Shown: positions 188-64,000 of the stretch, in pieces
How the letters are laid out: each line of letters opens with the position of its first letter
How positions within the stretch are numbered: position 1 is the first letter of the stretch
Assembly (NCBI GenBank): GCA_947568835.1
Contig: OX387612.1
Coordinates: 4,340,001 to 4,404,000, forward strand
Direction of reading: 5' to 3'
DNA length: 64,000 nt
Origin: Protonemura montana
Lineage: Eukaryota; Arthropoda; Insecta; Plecoptera; Nemouridae
Position numbers and translations under genes: made by a program
The notes under the pieces: model-generated
The model's database searches: none
The model's input: the letters and a program-made list of their open reading frames with translations, nothing else
What the model was told of the DNA's origin: nothing

Positions 188-15776
<15,589 letters not shown>

Positions 15777-35813: not shown

Positions 35814-38800
35814 ATGTTGAGCGCGTTGGTAAAAAACTCAGAGTCAAGTCCCAGCATCCTGATCCAGGATTCTCTTGACGCGCCAGGATCGTCACTGCTG
35901 CGAGCCGTGACGAGCATCTTATCTTCCAGACATCCTTCGATTCACATTGCTTGTCTCGATAACCGACCGGAACGCTTCAAGCCCCAGCTCAAACTCTCAC
36001 AAGGTCAGTAGAGTTTTGAACACACAATACCAAATAGCACAACTTGATAATGCCTACAAATTCTGGGTAGAGATCGTGTAACTTCTCCAATGGTGATCGG
36101 GACCGTTATCTTGGTAAATTCTAGGGTTAATAGCAGGAGTAGCAGGATTTGTAAATAACATTCTAGAAGCACGTGACAACCACAAACCAGCGATTGGAAT
36201 ATTTTATGACTTTAAAAAAGCTTTCGATTTAATCTCCCACAGGAGGCTGCTTTCAAAACTAGAAAGGCTTGGGATAGCTGGGATAGGAAACAAATGGATA
36301 GAATCATACTTAAAAAATAGAAGACAATCGGTACATATATACAGTAATGGAAGAACTTACATATCTCAAGAAACTACAACTAACATCGGAATCCCCCAGG
36401 GGTCGGTCTTATCGCCTTTGCTGTTCATTTTATTTACAAATGACCTTCCCGAAAGTGTAGAACAGGGAGAACTGATACTCTTCGCGGACGACACCACTCA
36501 CTTTCTATCTAACCCGGACCAGAGAATCTTAATAGAACAAGCAAACAAGGCAGTAAGCGCTCTAGATAATTGGTGCAACCAAAATGACATCTTCTTGAAT
36601 GACGCGAAAACAACTTGCATGAGATACACGGCTAAGGAAAAGACTGACACAAGCCCTTACATTAAACTACACGGGAAAAGTATCGCGCTACAAACGAATA
36701 CGAAGTTTCTTGGTCTTCACCTCGGTGACGGTACTGACTGGTGCACACACATCGACACAATAAGCAAACAAATTGCGTCAAGTTGCCTATTGCTAAAAAG
36801 ACTAATGGAGGTGGCCGGACTAGCAGCAAGTAAGCTAGTATACCATGCTTACATACAAGCAAAACTTAGTTACGGAATCATACTCTGGGGCAACCACTCA
36901 AAAACCCAAAGACTATTTAAACTGCAAAAAAGAGCTGTTCGGTATATGGCCAAAGCGAGCAGAAATCCAACAGCTGAGGTCTACATAAAAGATTCATGTA
37001 AGACTTTATTTCAACGTTTTAACATAATGACTTTAGCATGTATTTATATTTATCAGGTGATAATGTATGTTGTAAAAACAAATGCACACAAGGGGGAATT
37101 AACACACTCACATGACACAAGAACAAAACAAAACCCAAAAACAAAGATGCATAGGCATAAGTACTACACAAGGTCGCCACTGTACGCGGGTATAAAATTG
37201 TATAGTGCATTGCCCATCAATATTAAAAATAACACAACTAGTTTTAAACAAAACCTTGAATCTTTTCTTTTAGAAAAAAGCTTTTACAAGGTGGATGAAT
37301 TTTACAAGCTTTGACCTGTTGTGTTCAAACTGCACATTGTATTCATTGTATATTGTAAATATATTGCATTGTTTAACTGACGTATCCAATATCATGTATG
37401 TGATCAAAAAGGAAATAAAAACAAAAATACAAAATACAAAAAATACATTTTATTTAACGAGATCACGTTCATGATCTCTATTGAAATAGTTACATTATCG
37501 ATACCCAAATTCTTTACCAATGTAAATAAATGCTAAACCTCTTGTTTAGCCTCTAAACAGTTAAGTAGTTAAACAGTTAAGTTAAGCAACACTGTGCTAG
37601 GCCAGGTATCGCCTTGCTTATCAACCTCTCAACAGCATGGATTTGTGGAGGAATCCTGTTGTTCGCGTTGTACCGTCCTTTGGAAGGGACGTTAAGCCAG
37701 TGGTCTTTAACAGGAGTAGGCTCCGTGCCAACCCGAATTCCTCGCCACCCCGAATTCCTCGCCTCTCTTTTAGGTTAGTTTTATCATCATCCACTCATTC
37801 ACCGACGCCATTAGACCAGTGCCACATGGCTCGTTGTCAAAACAATGCGTCAATTAGCCTCACAAATCAATCAACCAACAATCACAATCTTCGTTTGCGT
37901 TCACCATCGCTACTCCAAGTTCCTATACGTTCCCTCCGTGAACGTCAACTCGAAAGCCACCTCCCTCCTCTGCGGATCCCCGTTCAGCTCCCGCTCCGCA
38001 CTCTTCCTCAGCAACCGCCAAAGCATCTTCGTCCGTGAATCAAACACAACGAACAGCAAACACAACATGGCGACAGGCGCCGGCGCAGTCACTTTAAACA
38101 ACCAATCGACAACCACCGTCTTCCTCCCGAGCTCGTAGACCAGCTCGAAGATCGTGGTGACGCCGAAGAAGAAGAACATCAGAATGACGGTCGCCAACTG
38201 TCCGATGGCGACCGCCTTGTCGTAACCGGCCGCCGAGACCTCGGGCTTGACGAGACCGAACAAATCGGTGATCTTCACGACGATGCTCGCCATCAGCGCA
38301 ACATTCGCTACGCAGATTCCGAACGCGGGCGTCAAGTACAAGACGTACTTGGCCGTGCGATCCGGCCAGAGAAAGTGCGCGCGTTGGTTCCACGCCGCGA
38401 GCGCGACCACCGGCAAGACGGGAACGACCCACGCGACCAGGTTGACTTTCTTCGAGACTTCCGGCGAGAACCAAGCGCCGGTCATTGCAACGACCATCGC
38501 GACCTGCCAGAAGTAGTGCGCCAGCCGGGTGTAGTTGAGCGCCACGTGGAGCAGGATCCAGCGCTGGCTCGAGTTGACGTTGGTGTCGTAGAGTTCGCGC
38601 AGCCAGAGCATGACGAGGTGGGCCGAAGCTGCGATCGTCAGGTGGATCAGAGTCTTGTTGCTCGCCGGTTGCCGCCACTGGGGCACGAAGACCGCGGTGA
38701 TGGCGATCATGGCAAAGCCGACCAATGAAAAGAGGCTGACGATGAGAAAAACGGCGTCTTGGGGACCGATTCCGCGCGGACCAATCGGCTGTACCGGCCG

Positions 38801-41800: not shown

Positions 41801-44641
41801 GCTAATTTTACTCTTTTTCATTACAATACGTTAGTATATACTTACAGATGGAGTTGTTTCAATTTGTCCATTTATTGGAATATTTCATTTCTTTAATAAA
41901 AACTTTCCTGATAAAATTGGACCCAAATTGAATTTACCTGTAAATTGTGTGTAGCTGTGGCACCTGTGTACCTCATTAATGATATTTTTTGTATTTGGGC
42001 GAATTTTATGCAAATTTAAGAACATTTGCTTTAACTTAGTCATTTTGCTAAATTTAAATGGTTGTTAACCAAGCGGCTGGAGCTTTGACTGTGGTGAAGA
42101 AGGAAAGAGAGAGAGATTGCTACTTACCGGAGATGAAAATTGGCGTCGCAAAACTTGTCTAAACTTGTCGAGAAAGTTCTAGAATTCCCGAGAATTTTAA
42201 CGTATTGGCGAGTTTCCTTTGTCGTTGTTAAAGATGTAAAAGTGATTTATTGTAGCATGCGGAAAATGTGGAAAACAAAATGTTTTTTATTATTAACAAC
42301 ACTATAACCGTCTCAAAAATTGATGCCCAAACGGGGACTCGGCCCCCGATCTCCACCTATCGCGGGTGTTGCTCTAAACCATTGAGCTACTTGGACACTG
42401 GCTTTTGAGACGATTTTAGTGTATTTTAGTTTATTTTAGTATTTCAGTGTAATAGTTTCTACTCCTTGGAGAACTGTCATTCTCATCAAATACACTAAAA
42501 TCGTCTAGAAAAGCCAGTGTCCAAGTAGCTCAATGGTTTAGAGCAACACCCGCGATAGGTGGAGATCGGGGTTCGAGTCACCGTTTGGACATCAATTTTT
42601 GAGACGGTTATAGTGTTGTTAATAATAAAATACCCCTCGCATTGCAAGCGTTTGCAATTGAAATAAGATTACATCCTAACAAAATGTTTATGTTTATGTA
42701 TTTGTTCATTTTTATTTGGGTTTTGAGATGTGTCAACCTATGGGTTATTTTGCGCCTTGAAAACAAAATAAAGAACGGAGTAAAGAAAGAGGTAACGTAA
42801 GGTAATGGTTTTTAGACTCATGTCTACTTGATTTATCCATAGCACTAGTTTTAACAAAAACTATTGGAAATTGGTTTTGAATGCTCAGTGAAGAACAACT
42901 AAATTTTCCAACGTTTTTTAACTTGTACCTATTACATAATCAAGGGTTAAAGCAGTCCTTAATTATAAACCTGCTTATAAAACTGCTTTTACCCTTGATA
43001 AAGTTACAGGTACAAGTTACAAAACATTGGAAAATTTTGTTGTTCTTCACTTAGCATTCAAAACCCTGTCCAAATATTTTTTGTCAGAGTTAGGTAACGT
43101 GAGGTATTGGCAATTTAAAGGTGTTACCAGAAATTGCAATGTTGTTTATGTTTTGGCCGGTGATTTCCTTATTTTGATCCAATCCAGACGTTCACTTTTT
43201 AACGGACATTTGGTCATGTGTTGACAGACTGTTCGGTGGCGTACCACGACTTCACCCGTGACCATCGTGGATGGAACGCTGCAGACAAAGTCCTAATCAC
43301 GGACTTGTCTCGACTTGACGTTTCCGGCAAAGTCGTCGTGATCGATTCGCTATCGACGCTGGTCTCAAGGGTCGGCTTCCTCAAGGCTTATCGACAGATT
43401 CACGGACTCGTCAGGTACGATCTCCTACTTGATTGTCTGGGCCAATTCTTTACTAACTCTTGAGTGCCTCTAAATCGATCAGAAAATTTAAGTTTCAGGC
43501 TTTTTTTTCTTAAAATTGTTGCAAAATGTATTTTTATGTATATATTTAAAACCAGGTCTTTGAATGCTATATAATAGCAACTCATTTTCATGACATTTTG
43601 CAACTTATGCATGTTTCTTCATCAAGCTACTGGACTGCTTTTACCTTGAAGAAGTAACGGGCATAAGTTACAAAACATCAGGAACATTTTTTTTTTTATA
43701 GCAAAACTAATTTTTCTTTCCATTGAAGGAAATTAAATTTTAAAAGATAAAGCAAAACTTAACAAAGACCATCAGCTCAACCTTTGCACTAGTTTTTATA
43801 AAACCTTTATGCTTGATAACTGTTAAGTAGAGTTCGTGAAAGGAATATGCGTTATTGTATGGGCTTATTATTTATTATGAATTATTGAAGTGGACTGATT
43901 CATTTTTTTTAAACATATACAATGTGTGTGCCCCAAACGGGAACTCAAACCCTGACCTCCACCTGTTGCGGGTGTTGCTCAAACCAATTGAGCTACTTAG
44001 TCATGTCGTTTTTGGGAGGATTTTAGTGCATTTGATGAGAATGACGGATCTCCGAGGTCTAGAACCAGAGTATCTACAAGTTTCTTCAAGGATTTAGTAA
44101 AATTTTTGACAGGATAGTGTCCATAATCATCCAAAAGACTTGTTTCTATGTCTTTATTTTCCTTTCCATACACGTATTCTTTATTTTTGCCAGGTCCAAC
44201 GTCACGATCGTCTGCCTGCTGCACGCAGACTGCCTCCCCGATTACGAGTCGAGTACAAAAAAGTTCCGTCAACTCTTCGCGACGTGCTTCAGCATCGAGA
44301 AGCCCTTCGATTCGGAAAGAGTCTCGCTGATTTGCCGCCACATCAAGAAAGGTGGTCGAGTGGTGCGATCCAAAGAGAACATCTCGATAGGCGACTCGAA
44401 CCAAATCGTTTTCCATGCTGTCGAAGTAATGAAAGACGTTAAAGACTTTGGTCCTGTGAAAGTCGAGGAGATTCCGAAAGAGCTGACGACTTTCAAAATC
44501 GACTTGGCGCCGAAAGAGAAAGAAGCTAGAGACCGCTTGGTTCTGCCGTACGTTAATGCCGGAAGCGGGAAAGTTTTCTACGAGCCGGACGATGCTGATG
44601 ACTGGGATGAGGAGGATCCCGATGAAGACTTAGAGATCTAG
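35814..44641 (+). CDS. ELP5: Elongator complex subunit 5, complete, 3 exons
   Basis: Exons 35814-36003, 43228-43414 and 44194-44641 join in phase (1, then 2) to 825 bp, encoding 274 aa plus TAG. Recognisable segments are SVAYHDFTRDHRGWN and KVVVIDSLSTLVSR in exon 2, and KEKEARDRLVLPYVN plus the acidic tail FYEPDDADDWDEEDPDEDLEI in exon 3 (the last read in two parts: FYEPDD, then ADDWDEEDPDEDLEI). This tail is typical of ELP5. ELP5 belongs to the RecA-like Elp4-5-6 ring of Elongator, which supports wobble-uridine modification of tRNAs in the cytoplasm. The 7.2-kb first intron contains a LINE and an antisense adhesion-GPCR-like gene. An AATAAA at 44708-44713 is the likely polyadenylation signal. 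Confidence 0.93.
36118..37450 (+). mobile_element. 5'-truncated LINE with RT core (ELP5 intron 1)
   Basis: The frame is open from about 36118 to 37314 and encodes a reverse transcriptase starting mid-domain: FYDFKKAFDLISHRRLL, GIPQGSVLSPLLF, LFADDTT (catalytic FADD box), NTKFLGLHLGD and a C-terminal YSALPINIKN. It is jockey-like and about 400 aa long, with no frameshift seen. The sequence ends in an A-rich tail (aaataaaaacaaaaatacaa) near 37430. It is in the sense orientation relative to ELP5 and starts about 115 bp after the exon 1 donor. It is related to but distinct from the LINE at 30775-31680. Confidence 0.88.
37575..37880 (+). mobile_element. 5S-derived SINE copy, head truncated
   Basis: Short 5S-like remnant (gttaagcaacactgtgctag), then body (cgccttgcttatcaacctct, tggatttgtggaggaatcct) and 3' end (caccgacgccattagaccag, ctcgttgtcaaaacaatgcg, cacaaatcaatcaacca). 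The (AATC)n-type tail is clear. The end lies about 30-50 bp beyond the stop codon of the antisense GPCR gene. Confidence 0.8.
37910..40521 (-). pseudogene. Adhesion-GPCR-like gene, frame broken by a 52-bp tandem duplication; first exon not found
   Basis: The gene is antisense inside ELP5 intron 1. An acceptor at 40522 opens a frame with a hydrophobic signal-like start (LSVPLLALALFVSAS) that lacks an ATG, so an upstream exon is missing. About 530 residues of ectodomain follow. They include a GPS-like Cys/Trp segment (GCAVWSVKLQGWSS ... RCKC) and a second domain of similar layout. A second frame (from about 39061 to the stop at 37910) has another GPS (CVAWD ... SWRDKTC ... CSCNLTST) and seven hydrophobic helices (about 38755-38025). 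The two frames meet at an exact 52-bp duplication (39061-39164). One copy alone would read through without a break (TVFRSRQIDVFSVTT). It may be a real pseudogene, an allele, an assembly error, or a gene repaired by splicing. The ligand is unknown. Confidence 0.75.
39061..39164 (-). repeat. 52-bp exact tandem duplication inside the GPCR coding region
   Basis: cgtcgatctgccgcgatctg recurs 52 bp later, and the whole unit is duplicated head to tail. Because 52 is not divisible by 3, it shifts the frame between the ectodomain and the transmembrane domain. Confidence 0.92.
40545..40715. mobile_element. tRNA-foldback family, short palindromic copy upstream of the GPCR exon
   Basis: The two ends are inverted copies of the family tail: ataaattgcaaacgcttgca ... 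attttattattaggaacact on the left, and gtgttcctaataataaaatg ... cattgcaagcatttgcaatt on the right. The tRNA-like centre is lost. It lies about 25 bp upstream of the GPCR acceptor (40522). Confidence 0.75.
41205..41375. mobile_element. Second foldback family, palindromic copy
   Basis: The left arm is tttttagactcatttctact, tagcactagttttgacaaaa, ctgggttttgaaagctaagt. The right arm is its inverse, cacttagcatttaaaaccca, gttctaatagtttttgtcaa. No coding capacity. Confidence 0.7.
42285..42670. mobile_element. tRNA-derived foldback element with two head-to-head tRNA-like arms
   Basis: The left arm (about 42290-42410) is a minus-strand tRNA-like sequence. The right arm (42529-42591) is a plus-strand one. 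In the right arm, GTCCAAG pairs with TTTGGAC as an acceptor stem, GCTC...GAGC forms the D-arm, and the T-arm (gggttcgagtc) carries the B box. A spacer of about 110 bp separates the arms. Both arms carry the tail gacggttatagtgttgttaa (or its inverse). The right side ends in gcattgcaagcgtttgcaa. The anticodon loop lacks the usual U33, so a functional tRNA is unlikely. Confidence 0.8.
42805..43085. mobile_element. Second foldback family, longest copy (about 280 bp)
   Basis: Arms tttttagactcatgtctact ... ttttgaatgctcagtgaaga and ttgttcttcacttagcattc ... tttttgtcag are inverted. The centre holds an inner inverted pair, caagggttaaagcag and ctgcttttacccttg. It lies in ELP5 intron 1, about 140 bp before exon 2. 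Confidence 0.75.
43600..44090. repeat. Foldback and tRNA-like fragments (ELP5 intron 2)
   Basis: At 43615-43690 there is a fragment of the second foldback family (ctgcttttaccttgaagaag, ataagttacaaaacatcagg). At 43930-44060 there is a minus-strand tRNA-like relic (cctccacctgttgcgggtgt, aaccaattgagctacttagt). Confidence 0.6.
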
Positions 44642-44707
44642 TTCAACAATAATAATTATTATTTAATGTTATTTTACCTCATATCAGCTCTTTTTCTTCA
44701 AAATACA

Positions 44708-44713
44708 AATAAA
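44708..44713 (+). promoter_or_regulatory. Polyadenylation signal of ELP5
   Basis: AATAAA about 67 bp after the ELP5 stop codon, in the expected position. Confidence 0.6.
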
Positions 44714-46192
44714 CGTTGAATTGAACAATCTAAGAATGAAACATGTTGGGCACCTGGTTCACCCTCCACTGCCTTGCAGGCTTGTTGCTGATCTTGTCCT
44801 TGTGTTGTGTCGGCTCTTGGCCGACACCTAGGAGGACCGAGTTCAGTGGTGCCAACAGATCAACCAGTCGTTGCGTATGCTTCGAGCCTGGATCAAGCGA
44901 CTTAAATGAATCGCACTTGCCTTTCTTTGTACCCTCTTTTCACAACCTAACCTAACCTAACCTAACCTTTACCTTATTGTTTACAGAACCTACAGAACAT
45001 GGATGTATTTCTTATATTATTATTACCGTTTTATTATGTGTAAATATGTGTTGCTGACAATAGTAAGATCAACGGTACGATTGATTAACAATTTGCTGCT
45101 AGTTTTGGAATTAACTTTAAATAAAGAAGTAATATTTACAATTTTACAAATATCTGTTTTACTGGTGAGTTATGATATGGTTGCAAGAATTGTATCAAAA
45201 TTCAGAACAAATGGGATATTCATATAGGATTCCTGAGGGGTGTCAACAGGGGTAGAATTTCAAGGGTAGATGAATGCAACCCCATGTTTTTGTCTCCGAT
45301 TTTATTTAAGGGAGTTATTCGTGTTTTAATGTTTAAAATCAATATAGCGGCGGAAGTATGATGCTTACGCAAAATCCAAATAGCCCATCGTGTTCGGGGT
45401 TGCAAACTACCCCTTAGACTACAGTATGAGCGAATCTTCAAAAATCAAGCAAAAACGTAAGGGAAAATTGATTGTATTATTTTTCAAACACAATGCAATG
45501 CACGCTTAATTGACATTGCATTGGTCAATCTGCACATCTTGCACATCTTGCAATCTTGCACAGGCCCTCTGGACCTGGGGCTTCAAGAATCGGTCCTCGT
45601 GAGCTTTAGACCTTTTACTGCTCGACAAGGCTCCAGCCCCAGTGCAGACTGTACTCAGTGCTTTTGGAAACAGCTGTCACAATATCGAACAATCATTTAA
45701 AATTACCAAGCTTAAAACTATACAGTCTAGACAAAGAGCAAACTTACAAAATAGGGAACGGAAAATTAAGGATTGTGTCGGAAGATAGATACGGCCAATT
45801 TGTCCGCAGAAACATAATTATTTGGAGACGAACTTATCGATTTTGTTGATTTTTTTTATTATCATTACCATATTTTCAGTATCAAATCTTTCAGTACGAG
45901 GTAATAGTTTTTAAGTAACCGTTATAATTACTCCAGGTACTTTCAGTAATTATCCTCTGCGTAATTACGCTATTATGACTGAAGAAATACCTCTTAAAAA
46001 CGTGTCGCATAAACTACAAGTGAAATTTACTAAAAAGTACAAATCTAGCAAATACAATGTCATACAAGTTGTGTACATATATAAAACTAAATTGATATCT
46101 ATATCTGTGAAAGCATGGGTTTGACTTGACAGCCTGGAGGAACTCGACTTGGCACGATGGTTTAGCTTGATAAATAGCCGGTGCTTTCTGCA
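44714..46192. other. Intergenic region between ELP5 and the zinc-finger gene (tail to tail)
   Basis: Contains a (CCTAA)n run at 44946-44967 and otherwise unrecognised AT-rich DNA. A small frame at 44743-44955 has a leader-like hydrophobic start but no homology I recognise. It is not called as a gene. Confidence 0.5.
44946..44967 (-). repeat. Interstitial (TTAGG)n telomere-like run
   Basis: Four tandem cctaa units plus a partial one. TTAGG is the usual arthropod telomere repeat. Shorter runs occur at 8046 and 17281. Confidence 0.7.
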
Positions 46193-48089
46193 CTAAGTTA
46201 CCAGGCGAAGAACTCGCTGTCTCGTGGATTTCTTGGATATCAGCGAAGCCAATTCTGCTTTAGACTTGCTGTGCACTTTCTTCAAGTGCTTCTTGTAGTA
46301 AGCCGAGATCCAGAAAACTTTTGGGCACAACGGGCAAGGAAGCTTTGTTCCCTGTTGATGGATGGCAGTGTGAGCAATCATGTTGGACTTGTCAGAAAAA
46401 GGTCTTCCACAAAGGTAACAAGGATACGGTTTCTCTCCGGTATGCGATCGAATGTGACTTTCTAGAGACCATTTGCGAGAGAAACTCTTCGAGCAGGCGG
46501 TGCACTTGTAAATCTTGAAATGAGTCATAATGTGCATTACAAATGCAGGTCGACTCACATATTTTTTGTGGCAAATGTCGCAAGTCTTTGCATATTTGGA
46601 GTTGGTACTGCGGTGAACTTGTTTGTGTCGTGAAAGGTTGGCAGAATTTGCATATTCCTTGAGGCACAGCGAGCACGAGAACTTCCTTGGGGCTTGAGAT
46701 CCTGGGAGAGATTTTTTCGGGACGTGCTCCTTGACTAAAGTCGTTTTGGTAACCAGGTCAAACTTTGGTACTTTGATTCCAGTTTTGCTCCCAGGTTGCC
46801 GGAATGATTTTTGCTTTTGGGAGAGTCTAGGCTTGACTTTGTCCTTGCTCGACGTAGGGATATCAGTGGATTGAAAATATTTCAAGTCATTCAGAAAGGT
46901 TCCGTTAGTACTTTTCACCCTTTTAAGAGGCAATGGGTCTAACAGCCACTCAGGGATTTCTGGAATTTCACCGCTACTGGGAAAATATCCAGAGCTGGAA
47001 TCTTCGGTGAGTTCGCTTTGACCTTCAGAATCGTGACCCCATTTCATCGGGAGTGCAAGTTCAAGCAAAGCTTCTGCAGCAGACATCTCTTGCTCGCTGC
47101 GGTCACTCGATGGGAATTCGTCAAGACAGGAGTAGAGTTCGATGACTGGATTCTTATCGTGCAGCGACGAGAAATCAGGGGGAGACGTGACGTCGATCCT
47201 GGGTATGCCTGGTTTCGCGATTACTGTAATTTCGAGTTTCATTGATGTTGGAGGGCTGATTTCGTTGGTCAGCTTTGGTGGCAATTGAGGACAGACTCGT
47301 TTTTCAAATTCCAATCGTCCTGAAACCACAAGAAATCACTGCTTAAGTGACAGGTTTCACCGAAATCTATCTGCCATAAGCCATGCGTTAGTTAACTTTG
47401 CTCTTTGGAGAATTTTCTTCACCTAAATGTATTTTCTTCATTTCGATCTAATTAGTTTGTCTTCCTTATCCCAATCGCTGAAGGACCGGCTCTCTTTTTA
47501 TGCAATCTAGGGACAAATTTTGAAATCTAGGGAAATTCTATTGATATGGTTGACTTGCAGAGTAGAGACCGGCTCGACAAAAAATAATTCGCAAGACATT
47601 ATTGTGATAATTATCAGTTGATTCACGGAACTGATATGTATTTATTATTTTCTCTTAAAATAAGTCCTCCAGTCATATTTACCGACTAAATGAAGCAATT
47701 GTCAAACTTTCTTGCATTGCTAAAAGTATCCACCATATTGTAAGCAATATAAAATCATAACTGTTCCCGAATTATTATTCTTTACATACCAGTCATGATG
47801 ACTTTATATGGACAAAGTATAATTAGAATTGCCCGTAGAATTAAGTAACTCTTTTGGTTTTTAGTTGGTAATGTAATTCAGCAATCGCGGTGATCGAGTG
47901 CACGGGTATTTGTTATACCAAATTCGTGCCATAGGTAGGTACATATCCATTTGCAGACTAAAGTGACGTTGAAAAACCACAGAACGAGGGAAGATCAATC
48001 ACAAAATATCAAGCAATAAAGGAAGAGAAAATCAACTCACCGATACCTCCCAATACATCATTGCCTTCCAAAATCAAAGTCTTCATCAT
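46193..48089 (-). CDS. Scratch/Snail-like C2H2 zinc-finger transcription factor, 2 exons
   Basis: Exon 1 is 48089-48041 (MMKTLILEGNDVLGGI, donor GTGAGT) and exon 2 is 47319-46193. The phase-1 join gives 1176 bp, 391 aa plus stop. The N-terminal 230 residues are acidic/Ser-Pro rich. They are followed by five C2H2 fingers at about residues 232-357. Finger 1 with its linker (NLSRHKQVHRSTNS) and finger 2 (CDICHKKYVSRPAFVMHIMTH) resemble Scratch proteins, and fingers 3-4 (HIRSHTGEKPYPC) keep the Snail-superfamily linker. The SNAG repression motif expected at the N-terminus (MPRSFLVK type) is absent, so this is a divergent member or a first exon is misassigned. It presumably binds E-box-like DNA in the nucleus. 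Intron 1 (about 720 bp) holds no recognised repeat. Confidence 0.8.
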
Positions 48090-49061: not shown

Positions 49062-52000
49062 ATGATCTTAATTCTCGTAGTCATATCTACTTTGGTATGG
49101 ATGGTTTACTCTTGGATGGTCAACGGTAGACCTAAAAACTTTCCACCAGGTAAATAGCTTTAGTTCAATTTCATTAAAAAATAAGGCTTTTGTTTTATTA
49201 AAAGCATCAATTTCAACGCCTTCGAGGTTGCAGTAGCTCTTATATAAAAATGTTCTAGATGGCTTTGAAATTGGTGGTAATTATAAAAGTTTACTGTCAG
49301 ATAGTGAAATAAAAGATATGATATAAACAATTGTGATTTCTGCTAGCAAACGCAGTTAAATTACTGTCGACAAGCCTGTAATAAAGTATACATGCGCTAT
49401 TATTGCTTCTCTTGGGGCATGCAATATTAAAAAAGGTGTCATTTTTGCAGAACAGAAACTACCTAGGTTTGAAATGTTATCTGTCACGGCAAATATGACG
49501 CTCAAATTGGCAATTTTACATTTCTTTTGAATTGATTTCTTGATTTGTGGTGTTTAACGACGCACTGTTTTGACAACGGGACCTGTGGCTCTGGTCTAAT
49601 AACGTCGGTTAGTGAGAGGGTGAAGATGATATCCCTAGTTAAGCTTATAAGGGAAGAGGGAAACCCCGGTGCCGGGACGAAGCCTACTTCTGTCAAAAAG
49701 CACCAAGGGGACCACCGGCTTAACGTCCCTTCTGAAGGACGGTACAACGCGAACAGCAGGATTCCTTCACAAATCCATGCTGTCGAGAGGTTGATAAGCA
49801 AGGCGAGTGCAGTTGCTGTACTAACTTTCATCTCTCCAACCTCTCCCCTGAACTGAACTGGTCATGTGTATGATGGTCACCCATCCAATACCTGACTCAG
49901 CGCAATGTTGCTTAACTTTCATCCCTCCAACCTCTCTCCCGAACAGAACTGGTCATGTGTATGATGGTTACCCATCCAATACCTGACTCAGCGCAGTGTT
50001 GCTTAACTTTCATCCCTCCAACCTCTCTCCCGAACAGAACTGGTCATGTGTATGATGGTCACCCATCCAATATCTGACTCAGCGCAGTGTTGCTTAACTT
50101 TCATCCCTCCAACCTCTCTCCCGAACAGAACTGGTCATGTGTATGATGGTCACCCATTCAATACCTGACCCAGCGCAGTGTTGCTTAACTTTCATCTCTC
50201 CAACCTCTCTCCCGAACAGAACTGGTCATGTGTATGATGGTCACCCATCCAATATCTGACTCAGCGCAGTGTTGCTTAACTTTCATCCCTCCAACCTCTC
50301 TCCCGAACAGAACTGGTCATGTGTATGATGGTCACCCATTCAATATCTGACCCAGCGCAGTGTTACTTAACTTTCATCCCTCCAACCTCTTTCCCGAACA
50401 GAACTGGTCATGTGTATGATGGTCACCCATTCAATACCTGACCCAGCGCAGTGTTGCTTAACTTAGTTTTTTTGAAAACCAAAGGATTGGTCAGAAAACA
50501 AATACATTGTTACAAAGGCCGCTGGCAAAAACCCCGTTTTTGGTTTCGAAATAAATTGAACTAATTTACCAGCAAGATAAGATCCCAACATATAAAAAAC
50601 GAACTAGACACGACAAATGTTTACGATCGAATCAAAATACTTTGAAACATTCCAGGACCACCGATAGTTCCATGGCTCGGTAGCATCCCCTTCATGACTG
50701 ACGCTGACGTCAACTTTCAATTCTACATGGAGAAATGGCGCAAGAAATACGGGCAAGTGGTCGGCTTCCAGCTGGGCTCTGAACCGTGCGTTGCCTTTGT
50801 GGGAGCCAGTGCCGTGGTGGAGGCGTTGAAACACGAAAATTTCCAAGGAAGGCCACATTCAGAAATAGTTCACGATCGCACGTTCGGCGAGTGCTTGGGT
50901 AGGTACAAGATTCAGTCAAAGACGCTCTGCAAGCAATTTCAGTTTTAGCACATAATTACATAGATATGGTGCTAAATTTATCAGCAAATTTTCACATAAC
51001 ACGTAAGACTCCCCGTATTTCTCACCTACCCGGATAAAAAAAAATTAAAATAATTTCCTGTTGAAGACTCATCTCCATGATCACTGCCAATCAGATACTT
51101 CCACTTGTAACTTCCGGTTGTACATTTAATTGGACAATGAAAACTGGCGGCAATCAATTTTCTCAAATGTACTATACAACTGTACTATGTACTATGTATG
51201 TACCTACTTATACTTTGTCCAAATCTAGTCAATGGAGCTTGAAAGTTCGAAAAAGCGAAATGAACAAGAAGAGATCAGAATATCGAACAGAGTTTAGATG
51301 ACTTTATTATTAGCAACACTGTCAAATTGGACGTCAACTCCAACCTGAAATCCAACGTCAAATTGGAGTTATTCGAGTTTGAGGTGTTGTGACGTGATAT
51401 AGCGTCACTAGAATCAGAGTGACTGTGAGTATTCACAGTCTTATGGTTCTACTCCTTGGAGATCTGTCATTCTCATCAAATACACTGAAATCGTCTCAAA
51501 AAGCCAGTGTCCAAATAGCTCAAATAGCAATACCCGCGATAGGTGGAGATCGGGGTTCGAGTCCGCGTTTGGGCATCAATTTTTGAGACGGTTATAGTGT
51601 TATTAATAATAAAATACCCCGCGCATTGCAAGCGTTTGCAATTTAAATAAGATATCATCCTAATATAGTTTAGATGAGTTTTCTCAAATTATTTAGAATC
51701 AGTTCGTTAGACAGAAATGGCATTACAGGGAAGTCTTGGTTTGAATTCATTAAATATATTTTATATTTGTTTATAGGAGTTTTCTTCTCGGACGGCCCAT
51801 ACTGGACCGAGCAGCGCAGATTCACTCTCCGTCATTTGAAGGACTTTGGCTTCGGCAGGAAGAGTATGGAAGGAATGATCCTGGAGGAGGCTGAAGACAC
51901 GGTGAAAGTGATCAAACAGTATGGCGGCAAGCCTATACAGGTAAACCGAGTCACATCATGATATCGATAAAAATGCTAACACACAAAACTAGTCAACAAG

Positions 52001-55000
52001 AAATTGGAAATCACACTATTTGTTTCTAGCATATGACCTGTGAGGGCATTTGTAATCTGTGAGAGACCTAATCATGACGTTGATTTCATATCTGGCCAAT
52101 TACAAACCAATTACAATGAGAATATTTTACATGCCAGTTACCACACACAGTTATTTGGAACAAAAATAAATACCGTTTAAATTTTGAACCATTTTGGACC
52201 AAGAAAAAATAAGAGTTATCGATTTGTGATGTTTAACGACGCACTGTTTTGACGACGGGGAGTGAAATGACGTCGGTATATGAGCAGATATGATGAACCT
52301 AGCCTAGACTAAAAGGGAGGACAAGAAACCCGGTGCCGGCACAAAGCCTACTCCTGTCAAATAGCACAAAGATGAACAAGCATTACGTTTCTTCCGAAGG
52401 ATGGTACAACTAAGGTACAACTACAACGTGAACAACAGGATTCCTCCACAAATCCATGCTGTCGAGAGGTTGATAAGCAAGACGAATGAAGTTGCTGTAC
52501 TAACTTTCATCCCTCCAACCTCTCTCCTGAACAGAACTGGTCATGTGTATATTAGTAACTCATCCAATACCTGAATCAGCGCCATGTTGCTTAACTTTCA
52601 TACCTACAACCTCTCTCTGGAACAGAACTGGGCATGTGAATGATGGTCACCCATCCAACACTTGACTCAGCGCAGTGTTGCTTAACTTTCATCTCTCCAA
52701 CCTCTCTCCCAAACAGAACTGGTCATGTGTATAATGGTCACCCATCCAATACCTGACCCAGCGCAGTGTTGCTTAACTTTCATCCCTCCAACCTCTCTCC
52801 CGAACAGAACTGGTTATGTGTATGATGGTCATCCATCCAATACCTGACCCAGCGCAGTGTTGCTTAACTTTCAACCCTCCAACCTCTCTCCCGAACAGAA
52901 CTGGTAATGTGTATGATGGTCACCCATCCTACACCTGACCCAGCGCAGTGTTGCTTAACTTTCAACCCTCCAACCTCTCTCCCGAACAGAACTGGTCATG
53001 TGTATGATGGTCACCCATCCAATACCTGACCCAGCGCAGTGTTGCTAAACTTTCAACCCTCCAACCTTTCTCCCGAACAGAACTAGTCATGTGTATGATA
53101 GTCACCCATCCAATACCTGACCCAGCGCAGTGTTGCTTAACTTTCAACACTCAAACCTCTCTCCCGAACAGAACTGGTCATGTGTATGATGGTCACCCAT
53201 CCAATACCTGACCCAGCGCAGTGTTGCTTAACTTTCAACCCTCCAACCTCTCTCCCGAACAGAACTGGTTATGTGTATGATGGTCACTCATCCAATACCT
53301 GACCCAGCGCAGTGTTGCTTAACTTTCAACCCTCCAACCTCTCTCCCGAACAGAACTGGTTATGTGTATGATGGTCACCCATCCAATACCTGACCCAGCG
53401 CAGTGTTGCTTAACTTTCAACCCTCCAACCTCTCTCCCGAACAGAACTGGTCGTGTGTTTGATGGTCACCCATCCAATACCTGACCCAGCGCAGTGTTGC
53501 TTAACTTTCAACCCTCCAACCTCTCTCCCGAACAGAACTGGTAATGTGTATGATGGTCACCCATCCTATACCTTACCCAGCGCAGTGTTGCTTAACTTTC
53601 ATCCCTCCAACCTCTCTCCCAAACAGAACTGGTCATGTGTATGATGGTCACCCATCCAATACCTGACCCAGCGCAGTGTTGCTTAACTTTCAACCCTCCA
53701 ACCTCTCTCCCGAACAGAACTGGTTATGTGTATGATAGTCACCCATCCAATACCTGACCCAGCGCAGTGTTGCTTAACTTTCAACCCTCCAACCTCTCCC
53801 CCGAACAGAACTGGTCATGTGTATGATGGTCACCCATCCAATACCTGACCTACCGCAGTGTTGCTTAACTTTCAACTTTCCAACCTCTCTCCCGAACAGA
53901 ACTGGTCATGTGTATGATGGTCACCCATCCAATACCTGACCCAGCGCAGTGTTGCTTAACTTTCAACCCTCCTACCTCTCTCCCGAACAGAACTGGTTAT
54001 ATGTATGATGGTCACCCATCCAATACCTGACCCAGCGCCGTGTTGCTTAACTTTCAACCCTCCAACCTCTCTCCCGCACAGAACTGGTCATGTGTATGAT
54101 GGTCATCCATCCAATACCTGACCCAGCGCAGTGTTGCTTAACTTTCAACCCTCCAACATCTCTCCCGAACAGAACTGGTCATGTGTATGATGGTCACCCA
54201 TCCAATACCTGACCCAGCGCAGTGTTGCTTGACTTTCAACCCTCCAACCTCTCTCCCGAACAGAACTGGTTATGTGTATGATGGTCACTCATCCAATACC
54301 TGACCCATCGCAGTGTTGCTTAACTTTCAACCCTCCAACCTCTCTCCCGAACAGAACTGGTTATGTGTATGATGGTCACCCATCCAATACCTTACCCCGC
54401 GCAGTGTTGCTTAACTTTCAACCCTCCAACCTCTCTCCCGAACAGAACTGTTCATGTGTTTGATGGTCACCCATCCAATACCTGACCCAACGCAGTGTTG
54501 CTTAACTTTCAACCCTCCAACCTCGCTCCCGAACAGAACTGGTAATGTGTATGATGGTCACCCATCCTACACCTGACCCAGCGCAGTGTTGCTTAACTTT
54601 CAACCCTCCAACCTCTCTCCCGAACAGAACTGGTTATGTGTATGATGGTCACTCATCCAATACCTGACCCAGCGCAGTGTTGCTTAACTTTCATCCCTCC
54701 AACCTCTCTCCCAAACAGAACTGGTCATGTGTATGATGGTCACCCATCCAATACCTGACCCAGCGCAGTGTTGCTTAACTTTCAACCCTCCAACCTCTCT
54801 CCTGAACTGAACTGGTCATGTGTATGATGGTCACCCATCCAATACCTGACCCAGCGCAGTGTTGCTTAACTTTCAACCCTCCAACCTCTCTCCCGAACAG
54901 AACTGGTTATGTGTATGATGGTCACTTATCCAATACCTGACCCAGCGCAGTGTTGCTTAACTTTCAACCCTCCAACCTCTCCCCCGAACAGAACTGGTCA

Positions 55001-58000
55001 TGTGTATAATGGTCACCCATCCAATACCTGACCTACCGCAGTGTTGCTTAACTTTCAACTTTCCAACCTCTCTCCCGAACAGAACTGGTCATGTGTATGA
55101 TGGTCACCCATCCAATACCTGACCCAGCGCAGTGTTGCTTAACTTTCAACCCTCCTACCTCTCTCCCGAACAGAACTGGTTATGTGTATGATGGTCACCC
55201 ATCCAATACCTGACCCAGCGCCGTGTTGCTTAACTTTCAACCCTCCAACCTCTCTCCCGCACAGAACTGGTCATGTGTATGATGGTCATCCATCCAATAC
55301 CTGACCCAGCGCAGTGTTGCTTAACTTTCAACCCTCCAACATCTCTCCCGAACAGAACTGGTCATGTGTATGATGGTCACCCATCCAATACCTGACCCAG
55401 CGCAGTGTTGCTTGACTTTCAACCCTCCAACCTCTCTCCCGAACAGAACTGGTTATGTGTATGATGGTCACTCATCCAATACCTGACCCATCGCAGTGTT
55501 GCTTAACTTTCAACCCTCCAACCTCTCTCCCGAACAGAACTGGTTATGTGTATGATGGTCACCCATCCAATACCTGACCCAGCGCAGTGTTGCTTAACTT
55601 TCAACCCTCCAACCTCGCTCCCGAACAGAACTGGTAATGTGTATGATGGTCACCCATCCTACACCTGACCCAGCGCAGTGTTGCTTAACTTTCAACCCTC
55701 CAACCTCTCTCCCGAACAGAACTGGTTATGTGTATGATGGTTACTCATCCAATACCTGACCCAGCGCAGTGTTGCTTAACTTTCATCCCTCCAACCTCTC
55801 TCCCAAACAGAACTGGTCATGTGTATGATGGTCACCCATCCAATACCTGACCCAGCGCAGTGTTGCTTAACTTTCAACCCTCCAACCTCTTTCCCGAACT
55901 GAACTGGTCATGTGTATGATGGTCACCCATCCAATACCTGACCCAGCGCAGTGTTGCTTAACTTTCAACCCTCCAACCTCTCTCCCGAACAGAACTGGTT
56001 ATGTGTATGATGGTCACTTATCCAATACCTGACCCAGCGCAGTGTTGCTTAACTTTCAACCCTCCAACCTCTCTCCCGAACAGAACTGGTCATGTGTTTG
56101 ATGGTCACCCATCCAATACCTGACCCAGCGCATTGTTGCTTAACTTTTAACCCTCCAACCTCTCTCCCGAACAGAACTGGTTATGTGTATGATGGTCACC
56201 CATCCAATACCTTACCCAGCGCAGTGTTGCTTAACTTTCAACCCTCCAACCTCTCTCCCGAACAGAACTGTTCATGTGTTTGATGGTCACCCATCCAATA
56301 CCTGACCCAGCGCAGTGTTGCTTAACTTTCAACCCTCCAACCTCGCTCCCGAACAGAACTGGTAATGTGTATGATGGTCACCCATCTTACACCTGACCCA
56401 GCGCAGTGTTGCTTAACTTTCAACCCTCCAACCTCTCTCCCGAACAGAACTGGTTATGTGTATGATGGTTACTCATCCAATACCTGACCCAGCGCAGTGT
56501 TGCTTAACTTTCATCCCTCCAACCTCTCTCCCAAACAGAACTGGTCATGTGTATGATGGTCACCCATCCAATACCTGACCCAGCGCAGTGTTGCTTAACT
56601 TTCAACCCTCCAACCTCTCTCCCGAACTGAACTGGTCATGTGTATGATGGTCACCCATCCAATACCTGACCCAGCGCAGTGTTGCTTAACTTTCAACCCT
56701 CCAACCTCTCTCTCGAACAGAACTGGTTATGTGTATGATGGTCACTTATCCAATACCTGACCCAGCGCAGTGTTGCTTAACTTTCAACCCTCCAACCTCT
56801 CTCCCGAACAGAACTGGTCATGTGTTTGATGGTCACCCATCCAATACCTGACCCAGCGCATTGTTGCTTAACTTTTAACCCTCCAACCTCTCTCCCGAAC
56901 AGAACTGGTAATGTGTATGATGGTCACCCATCCTATACCTGACCCAGCGCAGTGTTGCTTAACTTTCATCCCTCCAACCTCTCTCCCAAACAGAACTGGT
57001 CATGTGTATGATGGTCACTCATCCAATACCTGACCCAGCGCAGTGTTGCTTAGCTTTCATCCCTCCAACCTCTATCCCGAACAGAACTGGTCATGTGTAT
57101 GATGGTTACCCATCCAATACCTGACCTAGCGCAGTGTGACCTAAGGAAAACCGGTGTTTCCAACACGTCAAACCGTTTAGTAACAAATCGTAATTTTCTG
57201 TATCTACCAGGTCAGCATGTTCTTCACCATACCAGTAATCAACGTCCTTTGGGTGACGATGTCTGGAAAAAGACACGATCGGGACGACGTCGAGTTCCAA
57301 AACATCTTGGATGTTTTGTATCGTCACATGCGCACCGGTAAGCCCAGTGGCAACACGTGGTACACGATGCTTCCTTCTCTGAGAGGATGGTCATCCGAGT
57401 GGAGACAGTCGCTGAAGAACTTGGACGATCTGTACAACTTCATTGGCGTAAGTAAAAACTTTAGACGTTCACAGCAAACCTAAGCTGCGCAATATTTCCC
57501 ATTAGCAGCGATTGAAAGCATTGCTTGATATTTCTGTAAGAAAAGCTGGAAGGCACCGGATCTTTTCGACTTTTCACAATTGATTGATTGATTAGTGCAG
57601 TTTTGACAACGGGCTTTGTCCCACTGGTTGAATGGCGTCGGTGAATGAGTGGTTAAGGATGAGAATGAACCTAGCCTATTCTACAAGGGAATGAGAAGAC
57701 TCCTGGTGCTGACACGTAGCCTACTCTTGTAGAAGAGTACTAAGGGGACCATTGGCTTAATCAATTCTCCACAAATCTTTGTTGTCGAGAGGTTGATAAG
57801 CAAGGCAGGTGAAGGTGCTTTACTAACTTTCATTCCTCCAACCTCTCTCCCGAACAGAACTGGTCATGTGTATAATGGTCACCAATCCAATACCTGACCC
57901 AGCGCAGTGTTGCTTAACTTTCATCCCTCCAACCTCTCTCCCAAACAGAACTGGTCATGTGTATGATAGTCACCCATCCAATATCTGAACCAGCGCAGTG

Positions 58001-60282
58001 TTGATTATCGGTTATCTTATGAGAACCGGTGTTTCCAACACGCCGAACCGTTCGGCTCGTAAGAAATTGAATTCAAAACTTATACAGTATTATATCGTAT
58101 CTGTTTATGAACGACGTCCCTTATATTTAGGGTTGAGAAAGAAGCAAGACAGACATGAATGGGGACTGAAAATGAGTCAAGTCCCCAATCTCTAGGAATT
58201 CAGCTGGAGGATCAATTAATGGATGTTAGTAAAGTGAACTCTGCATTACGGAAATTTTTTTTTGCCATTCTATTTGACGGAGTTTAGGCGAATAAACAAT
58301 ACATAAGCATGTTCTATAATTTGCGTTTATATTTTAGAAAACCGCTCGAGAGCACGAGAAGACCCTCGATCCAACCAGTCCGCGAGATTTCATCGACGTC
58401 TACCTGCAAGAAATGCAAAAGGGAATTTCTGGCTCCACATTTCACGGTTTGTATTTAGTTCTCATAAAAATCATGCAGCTTGGAACGTGTGCCCCATTTC
58501 TCCATGTTTTAATGTAGTGCATAATTGTATAAGTTAGTGCCAGCGCTTTAAAGCACAAGCTCACTTTTTGATCTTGCACCAAAAATTGCCGAAAAGCTTA
58601 AAATAATTTTTGTAATCATCGTTCCGTTTAGAGAAAAGTTTGCTCGCCATCTGCGGAGACCTGTTCACTGCCGGAGGCGAATCGGTCAGCAACACCCTCG
58701 GCTTCTGCTTGCTGTACATGGTCAGCCACCCGGAAGTGCAGAAAAAAGTCCAAGCAGAGATCGACACCGTCGTTGGAAGGAACAGAAGAGTCACCCTAGA
58801 TGACCAGCATGAGTAAGAAGGGAACAGATTAATAGCTTACTTTTATAATTGTTTCATTGTGTTTCATTGTTGGGAAGTGTGGTTAGGTTGAAGATGATTG
58901 TTTGGTTAAACGGAGAGTCAGCTTGTCGACTAAGTAGTTGCTCCAAGGGTGGTTAGGATTAATTTCTATTTTGGCTCTATAGTTGAAAAATTCGTGAAAA
59001 TGATGAAAATTGCCCTTTGCAACGTATTTTAGAAATGTACGCTTAAGTAAGAACGAGACATCTAGTTTGAGATCAATTGAGTTCAATGTACTTTCATTAA
59101 CCTTGAAGTTCATTCATCTTGATTGATCTCAATTGATTTCAAAGTTCATTATGAAAAAGATATATACTTTCAAACCAAAGTGGAGTTTAACGACGCACTG
59201 TTTTGACAACGTGCTTCGTGGCACTGGTCTTATAACGCCCGTGAATGAGTGGGTGATGATTATAATAAAACTAACCTAGCCTAGGGTTAGGGAAACGAGG
59301 TGCTGGCACGTAGCCTACTTCTGTCGAAGAGCACAGAGGGGACTACCGGCGTAACGTCCCTTCCAAAGGACGGAACAATGCGAACAACAGGATTCCTGCA
59401 CAAATCCAAACAATTACCGACTAGGATTTGTTTGTTTTGCAGGTTGGTGTACTTGGAAGCAACGCTCCTGGAGGTCATGAGGTGCAACACAATCGCCCCC
59501 CTCGCCGTCCCACACCGAGTGACTAAAGACACCAATTTCAGGGGCTACGACCTCCCGAAGGTGAGGCACACGGCTAACAATCATTGCTCGTTTAGATTTG
59601 CTACTATCGGTTTTTGAAAAATGAAATCATATTCTGGATCATCAGAAGTTTGGAGACTTGGAAAAAGCACTTGGTTTCGTTATTAGGGCATGTGATCATA
59701 AAAATCTTTAAAACTTACAGTTTTGCAAGAAAAATCATTTTTTGCCAACTTCCGAGATCCGGTTATAGATAGCTCGGAGTTTAAAGATGATCGGCCTATC
59801 ACAGACGGTGTTTCCAGATTTTCAAGGGTTGTAACCATAGTGATAACAACTTTACCCACAAAGTTATCGTAGCTGAGCTTAAACTCGGCTTTGTTAAATC
59901 CGGCCCAGGGCTTGATTACAAAATTGATTTGAGGCTAGATTTTCATGGAAATTTCCAGAACACGATGGTCTTCCTGAGCCTCTGGAGCTGCGGCCAGGAC
60001 GAAGATCACTGGGGCGACGTGGATAATTTCCGCCCCGAACGGTTCATCGGCAAGGACGGCAAACTGATCAAAGACGAATACGCCATCACGTTCGGCATCG
60101 GTAAACGCGCTTGCCTCGGAGAGGTGCTGGCACGGAATTCGTTGTTCCTCTTTTTCGCTACGATGATGCAAGACGTGACGTTCAGCTTGCCTCCCGGCGC
60201 CGGCAAGCCGTCTACTCTTTGCTTGCCTGGCTTCACAGTAGCTCCGCAACCATTTGAAGTGATTGCTACCGAAAGAGCATAA
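49062..60282 (+). CDS. Cytochrome P450, CYP2-clan-like, complete, 8 exons
   Basis: Exons 49062-49149, 50656-50898, 51777-51940, 57211-57447, 58338-58446, 58632-58812, 59443-59560 and 59959-60282 sum to 1464 bp, encoding 487 aa plus TAA with consistent phases. An N-terminal membrane anchor (MILILVVISTLVWMVYSW) is followed by the proline hinge PPGPPIVPWLGS, helix C WTEQRRF (W120), the I-helix AGGESVS (residues 294-300), ExxR at EVMR (351-354), PERF (406-409) and the haem loop FGIGKRACLGE with ligand Cys432. The layout is that of a microsomal monooxygenase. Segment similarity (proline hinge, SLWSCGQDEDHWGDV) points to the CYP2 clan. The substrate is unknown. The I-helix has Ser where most P450s have the conserved Thr. 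Intron 3 (5.3 kb) is almost entirely a single expanded SINE. Confidence 0.95.
49535..50465 (-). mobile_element. 5S-derived SINE with about 7 modules (P450 intron 1)
   Basis: Minus-strand copy. The 3' end (tttaacgacgcactgttttg) and body lie at 49535-49850. About seven 91-bp 5S-bearing modules follow (gatggtcacccatccaatac, ctgactcagcgcagtgttgc, ttaactttcatccctccaac). The 5' head is missing. Confidence 0.88.
51315..51660 (+). mobile_element. tRNA-derived foldback-family copy (P450 intron 2)
   Basis: The leader gtgacgtgatatagcgtcac matches the copy at 32460. The tRNA-like core is damaged in the D-arm (tagctcaaatagcaa), but the B box ggggttcgagtcc and tail (gagacggttatagtgttatt, ataccccgcgcattgcaagc) are intact. 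It ends about 115 bp before the exon 3 acceptor. Confidence 0.75.
52215..57185 (-). mobile_element. Giant 5S-derived SINE with about 50 tandem 91-bp modules (P450 intron 3)
   Basis: The 3' end and body (tttaacgacgcactgttttg, attcctccacaaatccatgc, cgagaggttgataagcaaga) lie at 52215-52520. About 50 copies of the 91-bp module follow (52520-57130). The 5' head (ccggtgtttccaacacgtca, aaccgttt) is at 57145-57185. Head, modules and body are in normal SINE order, so the array is an internal expansion. Each module holds 5S-like sequence (complement of aagttaagcaacac...ttggatgggtgacc). Blocks of 13, 12 and 8 modules recur (markers taccgcag at 53851 and 55034; cctcgctccc at 54521, 55613 and 56341), which points to recent block duplication. 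Confidence 0.92.
57575..58065 (-). mobile_element. 5S-derived SINE, complete, two modules (P450 intron 4)
   Basis: The order on the plus strand is 3' end (gttttgacaacgggctttgt), body (gtcgagaggttgataagcaa), two 91-bp modules, then 5' head (gagaaccggtgtttccaaca, cgccgaaccgtt). It is a short-array counterpart of the 50-module copy about 400 bp upstream. Confidence 0.88.
59165..59425 (-). mobile_element. 5S-derived SINE, body only (P450 intron 6)
   Basis: The 3' end and body are present (tttaacgacgcactgttttg, cgtagcctacttctgtcgaa, gattcctgcacaaatcc). The 5S module and head are missing, as in a 5'-truncated retrotransposed copy. It lies about 20-30 bp before the exon 7 acceptor (59442). Confidence 0.8.
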
Positions 60283-62318: not shown

Positions 62319-64000
62319 TCAGACGGCAGACACCTGGGCATCTTCGTCATCTGAAAAAAAGATCGCAAATTAGACAACAAGAAAGATGCGACAGTTCATG
62401 ATATGTGTATTGTGTATGTTATAATGATTGTGGCAAAGTACACTAACACGGTCCCAAACGCTCTTAAACAACGTTTCGGAGCGATTTTAACCAATGTTTT
62501 TAACTTAAAAACAATGATTTTTCAATGACACTGTAAAACAAAAAGTTTAGACGTCAAACGAAGAACTAGAAAGGTGTTTTTAACAATGTGTTTGCTTCGA
62601 AACAGAATATTTTGTGCCTTAGGAAAATACAGAAATTGATGGAACTACTTTCTTCGACTTTCGTCTTTGAACTGCGGATAGGGCTGAGAGAAAATAGCGG
62701 AGGTTGCTAAATAAAATTTGTTTTATGTGACAGATTAAAAAAAGCCTTCCGAATTCACAAACAAATTCAAATTTAACTTTGCATCATACATACACTTTTT
62801 AAACCTTTCAAAATTTCGGCTTATCGGAGAAAATCAATCTGTCAGTAAAATCTATCGTTAAGGGCCAATTAAACAAGATTTGAACAGTGTTGCTAAAATC
62901 AGCCATTAGTGTGTCAATGAAATGGAGAAGGGAAGAAGTATTCTCTCTAACAAAGAGATAAATCTCGACTCACCATCTTCCTCGGGATCTGTCTGGTAGA
63001 AGGCGGTGCCCTCATGGGAATGCGCCCGGCCAAGGCGGTGAAGTCGTGCCATTTGCGCCGCAACGCTGTACGCTGGCGGCTGCCTGGCGCGCGCAGGGGG
63101 GCCCATAACGCAACCTGCGCAGGAAAAACGTACCACGTTATTAAGGTTCAGAGGCCCAAAACAACAAGCATAGGAGATTCAATGGTGCCATAGAGACGCT
63201 GAGATCGCCTGACAGCTTCTCAATTCTGCTATCTTGTGTTACCACGGGTATATCATGGCCTAGCATAGGAGATTCAATGGTAGATTCTACGTTTGGTAGC
63301 CATGGAGATGCTGAGATCGCCTGACAGAGCTTCTCAATTCTGCTATCTTATGTTACCATGGGTATATCATGGCCTAGCATAGGAGATTCAATGGTAGATT
63401 CTACGTTTGGTAGCCATGGAGATGCTGAGATCGCCTGACAGAGCTTCTCAATACTGCTATCTTATGTTACCACGGGTATATCATGGCCTAGCATAGGAGG
63501 TTCAATGGTAGATTCAACGTTTGGTAGCCATGGAGATGCTGAGATCGCCTGACAGAGCTTCTCAATTCTGCTATCTTATGTTACCACGGGTATATCATGG
63601 CCTAGCATAGGAGGTTCAATGGTAGATTCAACGTTTGGTAGCCATGGAGATGCTGAGATCGCCTGAGAGAGCTTCTCAAATTTTGTTTCTTACATAGGCA
63701 ATACATATCAACGCAGAAATTGGCGCGCTAAGTTAAATACAATTTGAATGTCAATATCCGTGGCACGAAATAAAACCAGGAAAAATTACTTTGGTACACA
63801 ACATGAAATTAAATTTTTTTTAGCGCAGCTATTCTTCCATACGGATGGAACATCTAAGTCTGCACGAACAAAGCGTTATCACTCATTAGAAAATGCCCGA
63901 GACCTTTTGAAAACATCCTTGGCAACATCGGAAGTCCTCGGCTCCTGCCTACCTTGCATGGCCGAATGTCGTCGTCCCTGCAACGGTGACAGGTTGCCGA
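62319..64000 (-). CDS. RAPGEF2/6-like: RapGEF2/6 (PDZ-GEF) C-terminal exons, partial
   Basis: Exons in transcript order: 64000 (window edge)-63953, 63114-62974, 62350-62319, all with AG/GT borders and phase 1. The joined tail contains QGRRHSAMQGCVMGPPARAR, QPPAYSVAAQMARLHR, YQTDPEEDDDEDAQVSAV, then TGA at 62321-62319. It matches the known layout of the vertebrate RAPGEF2 tail: a KPPDYNVALQ-like segment, then a short variable stretch, then an acidic run and the terminal QVSAV PDZ ligand. These proteins activate Rap1/Rap2 at junctions, and the C-terminal SAV binds PDZ scaffolds such as MAGI. The catalytic domains lie outside the window. The intron between the first two exons holds an inverted 114-bp array. 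Confidence 0.82.
63160..63680 (-). repeat. 114-bp satellite array, about 4.5 copies (RapGEF intron)
   Basis: Same unit and orientation as 14455-14845 (ggaggttcaatggtagattc, aacgtttggtagccatgg, gagatcgcctgacagagctt), and the inverse of 1041-1583. It lies about 49 kb from the nearest other copy. Confidence 0.9.

Follow-up and report, generated by a model that had tools for sequence, protein, structure and literature searches.

Satellite DNA can be derived from short interspersed elements (SINEs), as in the satellites sSat1-3 described in a survey of 56 squamate genomes. In snakes, the repeated unit of a SINE-derived satellite is 67 nt long and consists of the box B end of the SINE head together with part of the body, and the largest arrays count 320 units in the cobra and close to 950 in the glossy snake (PMC10702118, in the passages concerned). 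That a promoter-bearing SINE module can multiply into arrays of tens or even hundreds of units is therefore already known. SINEs with a head derived from 5S rRNA occur in moths, a beetle, fish, fruit bats and the springhare (PMC8010984 and PMC3272025, in the parts cited). Here, we analyze a 5S-headed SINE of the plecopteran insect Protonemura montana, which contains 51 tandem modules and lies in an intron of a P450 gene. The window, that is, the whole stretch of 64,000 nucleotides analyzed (C15:4340001-4404000, from an assembly of 258.5 Mb), provides all coordinates that are given without a contig prefix. The 51-unit element appears to be the 5S equivalent of the reptile SINE-derived satellites, and not a new kind of system.

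The likeness to the squamate satellites extends to several properties. The tandem unit is shorter than the SINE, comprising in snakes the promoter-bearing end and part of the body; the end units continue to the SINE terminus, as the head and body do here around the 51-unit array; and the number of units per locus ranges from a few to hundreds, with alternating sub-variants. The squamate satellites differ from the present family in having tRNA heads and reptilian hosts (PMC10702118, in the passages concerned). SINE-derived satellites are further marked by arrays of at least four units, by greater homogeneity of longer loci and by a subtelomeric preference. Moth SINE3 elements (HaSE3, PxSE4/5) are built of a head derived from 5S, in which boxes A, IE and C are recognized, a body and a tail related to long interspersed elements (LINEs), and they are flanked by target-site duplications (TSDs); the family studied here resembles them in its 5S head, its body and its TSDs. 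Unlike the element studied here, they are without an internal tandem array in the passages concerned, and PMC8010984 nowhere uses the word "tandem" (PMC3272025, PMC8010984). SVA/LAVA elements, which are non-autonomous and lack long terminal repeats (LTRs), likewise harbor an internal variable array that changes at the DNA level after insertion. Their variable-number tandem repeat is GC-rich, with units of 30-50 bp, and nearly all changes involve ≤3 units (PMC4432496, in the passages concerned), whereas here the promoter region of the element itself lies inside the unit, and copying has involved blocks of 8-13 units. Cassandra is another 5S-bearing retroelement that forms tandem arrays, but it is a plant LTR element, and its repeated unit is an LTR plus the internal domain (PMC7215508, in part). 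Among the literature matches listed, including PMC10886601, the passages concerned hold no 5S-type SINE with an internal array; among the same matches, they likewise hold no retroposed SINE multimers of this kind. A preliminary description of the locus had called module growth to this extent unusual, an assessment that is weakened by the published SINE-derived satellites.

Structure and identity of the 51-module element

Tandem Repeats Finder detects a 91-bp tandem array at 52501-57137 with 51.0 copies, 94% matches, 0% indels and a score of 8224, and cutting this array in phase yields 51 ungapped units with a mean pairwise difference of 5.36 of 91 sites. The 5S sense of the element is the minus strand. 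Read in this direction, a 5S-like head (~57180-57138; head query 4-45, bases 57178-57180 being inferred) is followed by the array (57137-52501), in which each module consists of a 5S box A/box C region and a spacer, and then by the SINE body with its 3' tail (52500 to ~52215; body query 1-283, match up to 52218). The proposal that one element with its own head and body surrounds about 50 modules thus stands, with a count of 51. The box A region is deleted from the copy's own head, the deletion joining GGTCAC to ACTGCGC. The element occupies most of a plus-strand P450 intron (GT...AG, 51941-57210, exon borders by eye), and the P450, when spliced by eye, has its best matches at 49-51% identity in cockroach, katydid and cricket (best 120 of 998 matches), most of which, among the matches listed, are named methyl farnesoate epoxidase; by these matches, the gene is most probably that of an insect. 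The 51-module copy is flanked by CGATTTGT/ACAAATCG; terminal inverted repeats were rejected as a feature of the family, as by eye they are not found at other copies, which have long direct duplications instead.

The family is a 5S-derived SINE of the SINE3 type. A one-module copy (22657) matches the Rfam 5S model RF00001 over model positions 1-120 with 53.7 bits, the match spanning the head and part of the module. Similarly, in 10 of the 20 C2 loci (100 kb), all 10 Rfam 5S matches fall on SINE heads, each covering positions 1-120 with 38.4-71.2 bits; 10 of the 15 head-bearing copies in those 10 loci match, and the remaining five, which are truncated, diverged or cut by the end of the locus, stay below the gathering score. 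The 51-unit array itself has no Rfam match up to E = 1, because the module contains only the second half of 5S, from box A to box C, and the spacer. Boxes A and C are plain in the module sequence; the names and positions given to the boxes are consistent with the SINE3 papers cited above. By eye, the SINE tail ends in an ATCA-type simple repeat. Among 14 intact copies, five, which hold 2, 2, 4, 1 and 4 modules, have TSDs above the 95% null of a mispaired-flank control, and four of these five exceed all 182 mispaired controls. In this test, as in those of mutation sharing, within-locus distance and divergence described below, loci L002, L004 and L006 were dropped as the same places as L001, L003 and L005. 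A Helitron with central repeats was ruled against by duplications of 14-23 bp, which are generally not expected of Helitrons.

The local sample comprised 314 kb, namely the window and 250 kb of C2 and C5. It contains 38 loci with at least one module, partial ones included, two of the C2 loci being duplicates of two others. A single module is found at 16 loci, two at seven, three at four, four at five, six at one, seven at two, and eight, 10 and 51 at one locus each. When only copies with both head and body are considered (n = 16), six have one module, five have two, three have four, and one copy each has seven and 51. The preliminary description was therefore correct in recognizing a 5S-derived SINE, with 5S heads, whose promoter-bearing module varies in number, reaching 51 in this copy.

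Timing and mode of module multiplication

We consider it probable that the array is an internal variable-number tandem array of a SINE3-type SINE, which arose by a founder duplication, was retroposed with two or three modules, and later grew in place to 51. The two ends of the founder duplication may have been set by the 5S box A region (GAAGTTA-AGCAAC) and by a stretch resembling it where the body begins (GAAAGTTAGTACAGCAAC), so that box A would be rebuilt at every junction, as the junction itself suggests. Elements with two or three modules would then have been retroposed as multimers, to which the unshared mutations described below point, and some copies would have expanded after insertion by unequal exchange or break-induced copying of multi-module blocks.

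Signs of growth in place are seen in the 51-unit array. The nearest neighbor of 48 of its 51 modules lies in the same array, and blocks of modules recur within it at an offset of 13 (7 units, 4 differences in 637), of 8 (6 units, 3 differences in 546) and of 12 (5 units, 3 differences in 455). These duplicated blocks of 8, 12 and 13 modules, which differ by <1%, indicate that the array grew where it now resides. The SVA study gives ~200 bp as the distance of replication slippage in humans (PMC4432496, in the passage concerned). The blocks here lie 728-1183 bp apart, beyond this distance, and unequal exchange or break-induced copying would therefore be likelier. The length of the array is its length as assembled, and near-identical blocks of 8-13 modules are places where assemblies err, so that the unit number could in part be an artefact of collapse or inflation. 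This is quite unlikely, as the assembly consists of only 34 pieces, one of them of 33.1 Mb, and arrays of 22 (C1:62012-63979) and 13 modules (L008) occur elsewhere in the genome. By eye, the 22-module array ends at an LTR-like element (C1:63979 onwards, L034).

The sharing of private mutations among the modules of a copy was assessed in 26 copies with at least two full modules, 11 of which have at least four (maximum 51); modules of <70 nt were dropped, here and from the within-locus distances. Private mutations are shared beyond mixed controls in 9 of the 11 copies with at least four modules (p 0.02 or less), whereas of the 15 copies that have two or three full modules, 12 show none that are common to their modules (57 mutations, 1-8 per copy). 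An unlikely alternative is that every copy was inserted with one module and that all arrays grew in place later, as in ordinary satellite birth. The in-place growth of the larger arrays and the three small copies that do share mutations are consistent with this notion, but the other 12 would require a duplication at or soon after insertion, a point tempered by the few mutations per copy. Module site 16 is a mixture of A and G in 8 of the 15 small copies, and the same A/G polymorphism exists among one-module copies; the pattern at this site is A-G-G in each of the three copies that have three full modules, which is a small sample. The mixture bears on a second alternative, by which the reverse transcriptase slipped on its template, an RNA with one module, within the box A homology and thereby produced the extra modules during insertion. 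Such slippage would account for the modules being alike at insertion and for the constant junction, but a one-module template would yield no mixture, and we hold this explanation, too, to be improbable.

Several other comparisons bear on the history of the modules. The array consensus lies 0-2 of 91 sites from the family consensus in 10 arrays (C2:112117 not among them). Within the 51-unit array, the two body-side modules are 10 and 9 sites off the family consensus, and the remaining 49 are 1-6 sites off. Within-locus distances are 0.059 (51 units), 0.050 (16), 0.043 (13), 0.048 (9) and 0.035-0.104 (7). In 22 of 23 copies, the body has diverged further than the modules (three C2 rows belonging to a segmental duplicate were dropped), and when taken segment by segment, only the body beyond position 80 differs, so that subfamily variety of the body suffices to explain the gap. 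The idea that young modules had recently entered an old copy was accordingly rejected, since neither the head nor the first 80 bp of the body differs significantly from the modules (p 0.20 each). Position-specific module types were also rejected, as neither the first nor the last modules are set apart by any column (best p 0.056).

A number of observations weigh against the account given above. Three of the 15 small copies share private mutations, and with only 1-8 mutations per copy, zero sharing is weak for any single copy. Slippage at insertion leaves the same mark as a multimeric source. The 51-unit array fails the sharing test (150/176, p 0.117), its control being saturated, as does C2:64511 (p 0.393). 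The family consensus excludes the 51-unit array and includes the other arrays, making the consensus test partly circular. A TSD is evidence of retroposition and not of the module number at insertion, and both four-module copies with a TSD share mutations. By the mispaired-flank control, no TSD is detectable for the 51-module copy or for eight other intact copies of the 14 tested, and no partner LINE, own 5S gene or transcript turned up, with no LINE-directed search having been made. Finally, arrays without head and body exist (C2:64511-65004, C2:72066-72747). They also qualify the association of head and body with modules that the preliminary description implies for this family: in the local sample, it holds for 16 of 16 head-plus-body copies, and not for these arrays or for body pieces without a module (e.g., C2:125627-125916 and window 37585-37874), the latter being expected of 5'-truncated copies.

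Promoter sequences within the array

At each junction, the body-derived GAAAGTTA is joined to AGCAAC, whereby box A is rebuilt. The array contains 46 exact box A 12-mers and 28 exact box C 14-mers, as compared to 34, 35 and 19 occurrences of three spacer words, and an exact box A and an exact box C are found together in 25 of 51 units. Box A is therefore the best kept, above each of the spacer words, whereas the words of box C (28 and 33) fare no better than those of the spacer. There are no four-T runs in the 5S sense, as opposed to ~12 in mononucleotide shuffles. Both the number of box A words and the absence of such runs could be taken to favor the suggestion, made in the preliminary description, that the array is maintained as a platform for the binding of TFIIIA and RNA polymerase III (Pol III), although the latter follows from the repetition of one unit. 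Divergence argues otherwise. The 5S part, defined as the 38 nt after the junction, with part of box A counted as spacer, and the spacer diverge to a similar degree in the 51-unit array (0.031 vs. 0.034), and in other arrays the 5S part diverges no less (0.044 vs. 0.031; outside CpG 0.042 vs. 0.028, p for lower = 0.92). This comparison thus gives no clear indication that promoter function is under selection within the arrays, and as the conservation of the 5S part does not clearly exceed that of the spacer, the platform is unsupported; with box A deleted from the head as well, we regard it as highly improbable. The element spreads and expands like a SINE and a satellite seed, and a host function is not indicated.

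Other copies, repeat setting and implications

Members with 1, 2, about 7 and about 10 modules had been reported for the window, and all of these are present. A full one-module copy (22657-23057, plus strand) has a 14-bp TSD with one mismatch; a second one-module copy has a truncated head (34704-35075, plus). The two-module copy (57600-58055, minus) has a head and a body, and its Rfam 5S score of 34.3 bits is below the gathering score. The seven-module copy (49540-50458, minus) begins at the box A junction and has a full body, and the 10-module copy (23763-24681, plus) is cut within a module at its 5' end and within the body at its 3' end. Irregular copies include two with a 5S head doubled by eye, one with a truncated body (31709-32071, plus) and one with two full modules and no body (13786-14057, plus); these dimeric heads, in which a second partial 5S is fused to the head, lie at 31675-31770 and 13786-13880. 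A body with a damaged module (3186-3550, minus) and two body fragments (37585-37874, plus; 59180-59408, minus) are also present. At C2:191800-198700 (L028), the same SINE fragments are found twice at a distance of ~3.95 kb, pointing to a direct duplication.

The exact box C 14-mer TTGGATGGGTGACC occurs 22,700 times genome-wide (11405 + 11295), and its reversed control 0 times. Combined with the share of modules that keep box C, the exact box C words give an estimated total of 44,000-48,000 modules, whereas scaling by length gives 77,000-124,000; as the two estimates disagree, the total is only rough.

Dispersed minisatellites abound in the local sample: tandem arrays with a period of at least 20 and at least three copies number 67 and take up 48,162 of 314,000 bases, 12 of them belonging to the 91-bp family. 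In a test of adjacent flanks that covered ten other recurring families, seven had no shared flank in any pair, and three had shared flanks in some pairs (41 bp, 7/55 right; 68 bp, 1/21 right; 46 bp, 1/1 left). This suggests that the genome is generally prone to tandem repeat expansion and that the SINE array is one case of it.

Several of these repeats were observed in their own right. The dispersed 68-bp family (C2 L009-L028; window 4789-5136) contains a piece like SINE body 91-138 (alignment score 44 vs. a shuffled maximum of 25), and matches to the SINE body lie inside the 68-bp arrays in 6 of 6 cases on C2 and in none in the window array 4789-5136. At C2:139583-140963 (L022-L023), three diverged 5S modules adjoin an array of 70-bp units that by eye resemble tRNA and contain a box B-like GGTTCGATCC; ARAGORN called no tRNA in L022 or L023. 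A 41-bp family has 11 loci of 5-47 copies (window 5439-6004 and 9573-10551, and nine C2 loci), the flanks being mostly unshared, and a 114-bp family has four loci without shared flanks (window 1045-1585, 14457-14845 and 63183-63679; C2:62223-62930). A 189-bp array of 10.9 copies (25104-27158) occurs once in the sample. Reading frames resembling reverse transcriptase are found at 30775-31479 (by eye) and at 36118-37311, the latter matching many reverse transcriptase proteins with a best identity of 47%.

A more far-reaching proposal, which we put forward tentatively and with some doubt, is that of a multi-promoter SINE. The mobile unit would be the multimer, and its RNAs would differ in how many 5S-type Pol III promoters they carry; promoter copy number would be heritable and selectable, and the same junction would seed satellite arrays in genes. 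More generally, the link between SINEs and satellites known from squamates would extend to an insect and to a different promoter class. Modules number roughly in the tens of thousands in the genome of P. montana, from single ones to arrays of about fifty, and the order of events, that is, whether modules were duplicated in the source element, during insertion or afterwards, is directly testable by comparison of related species.

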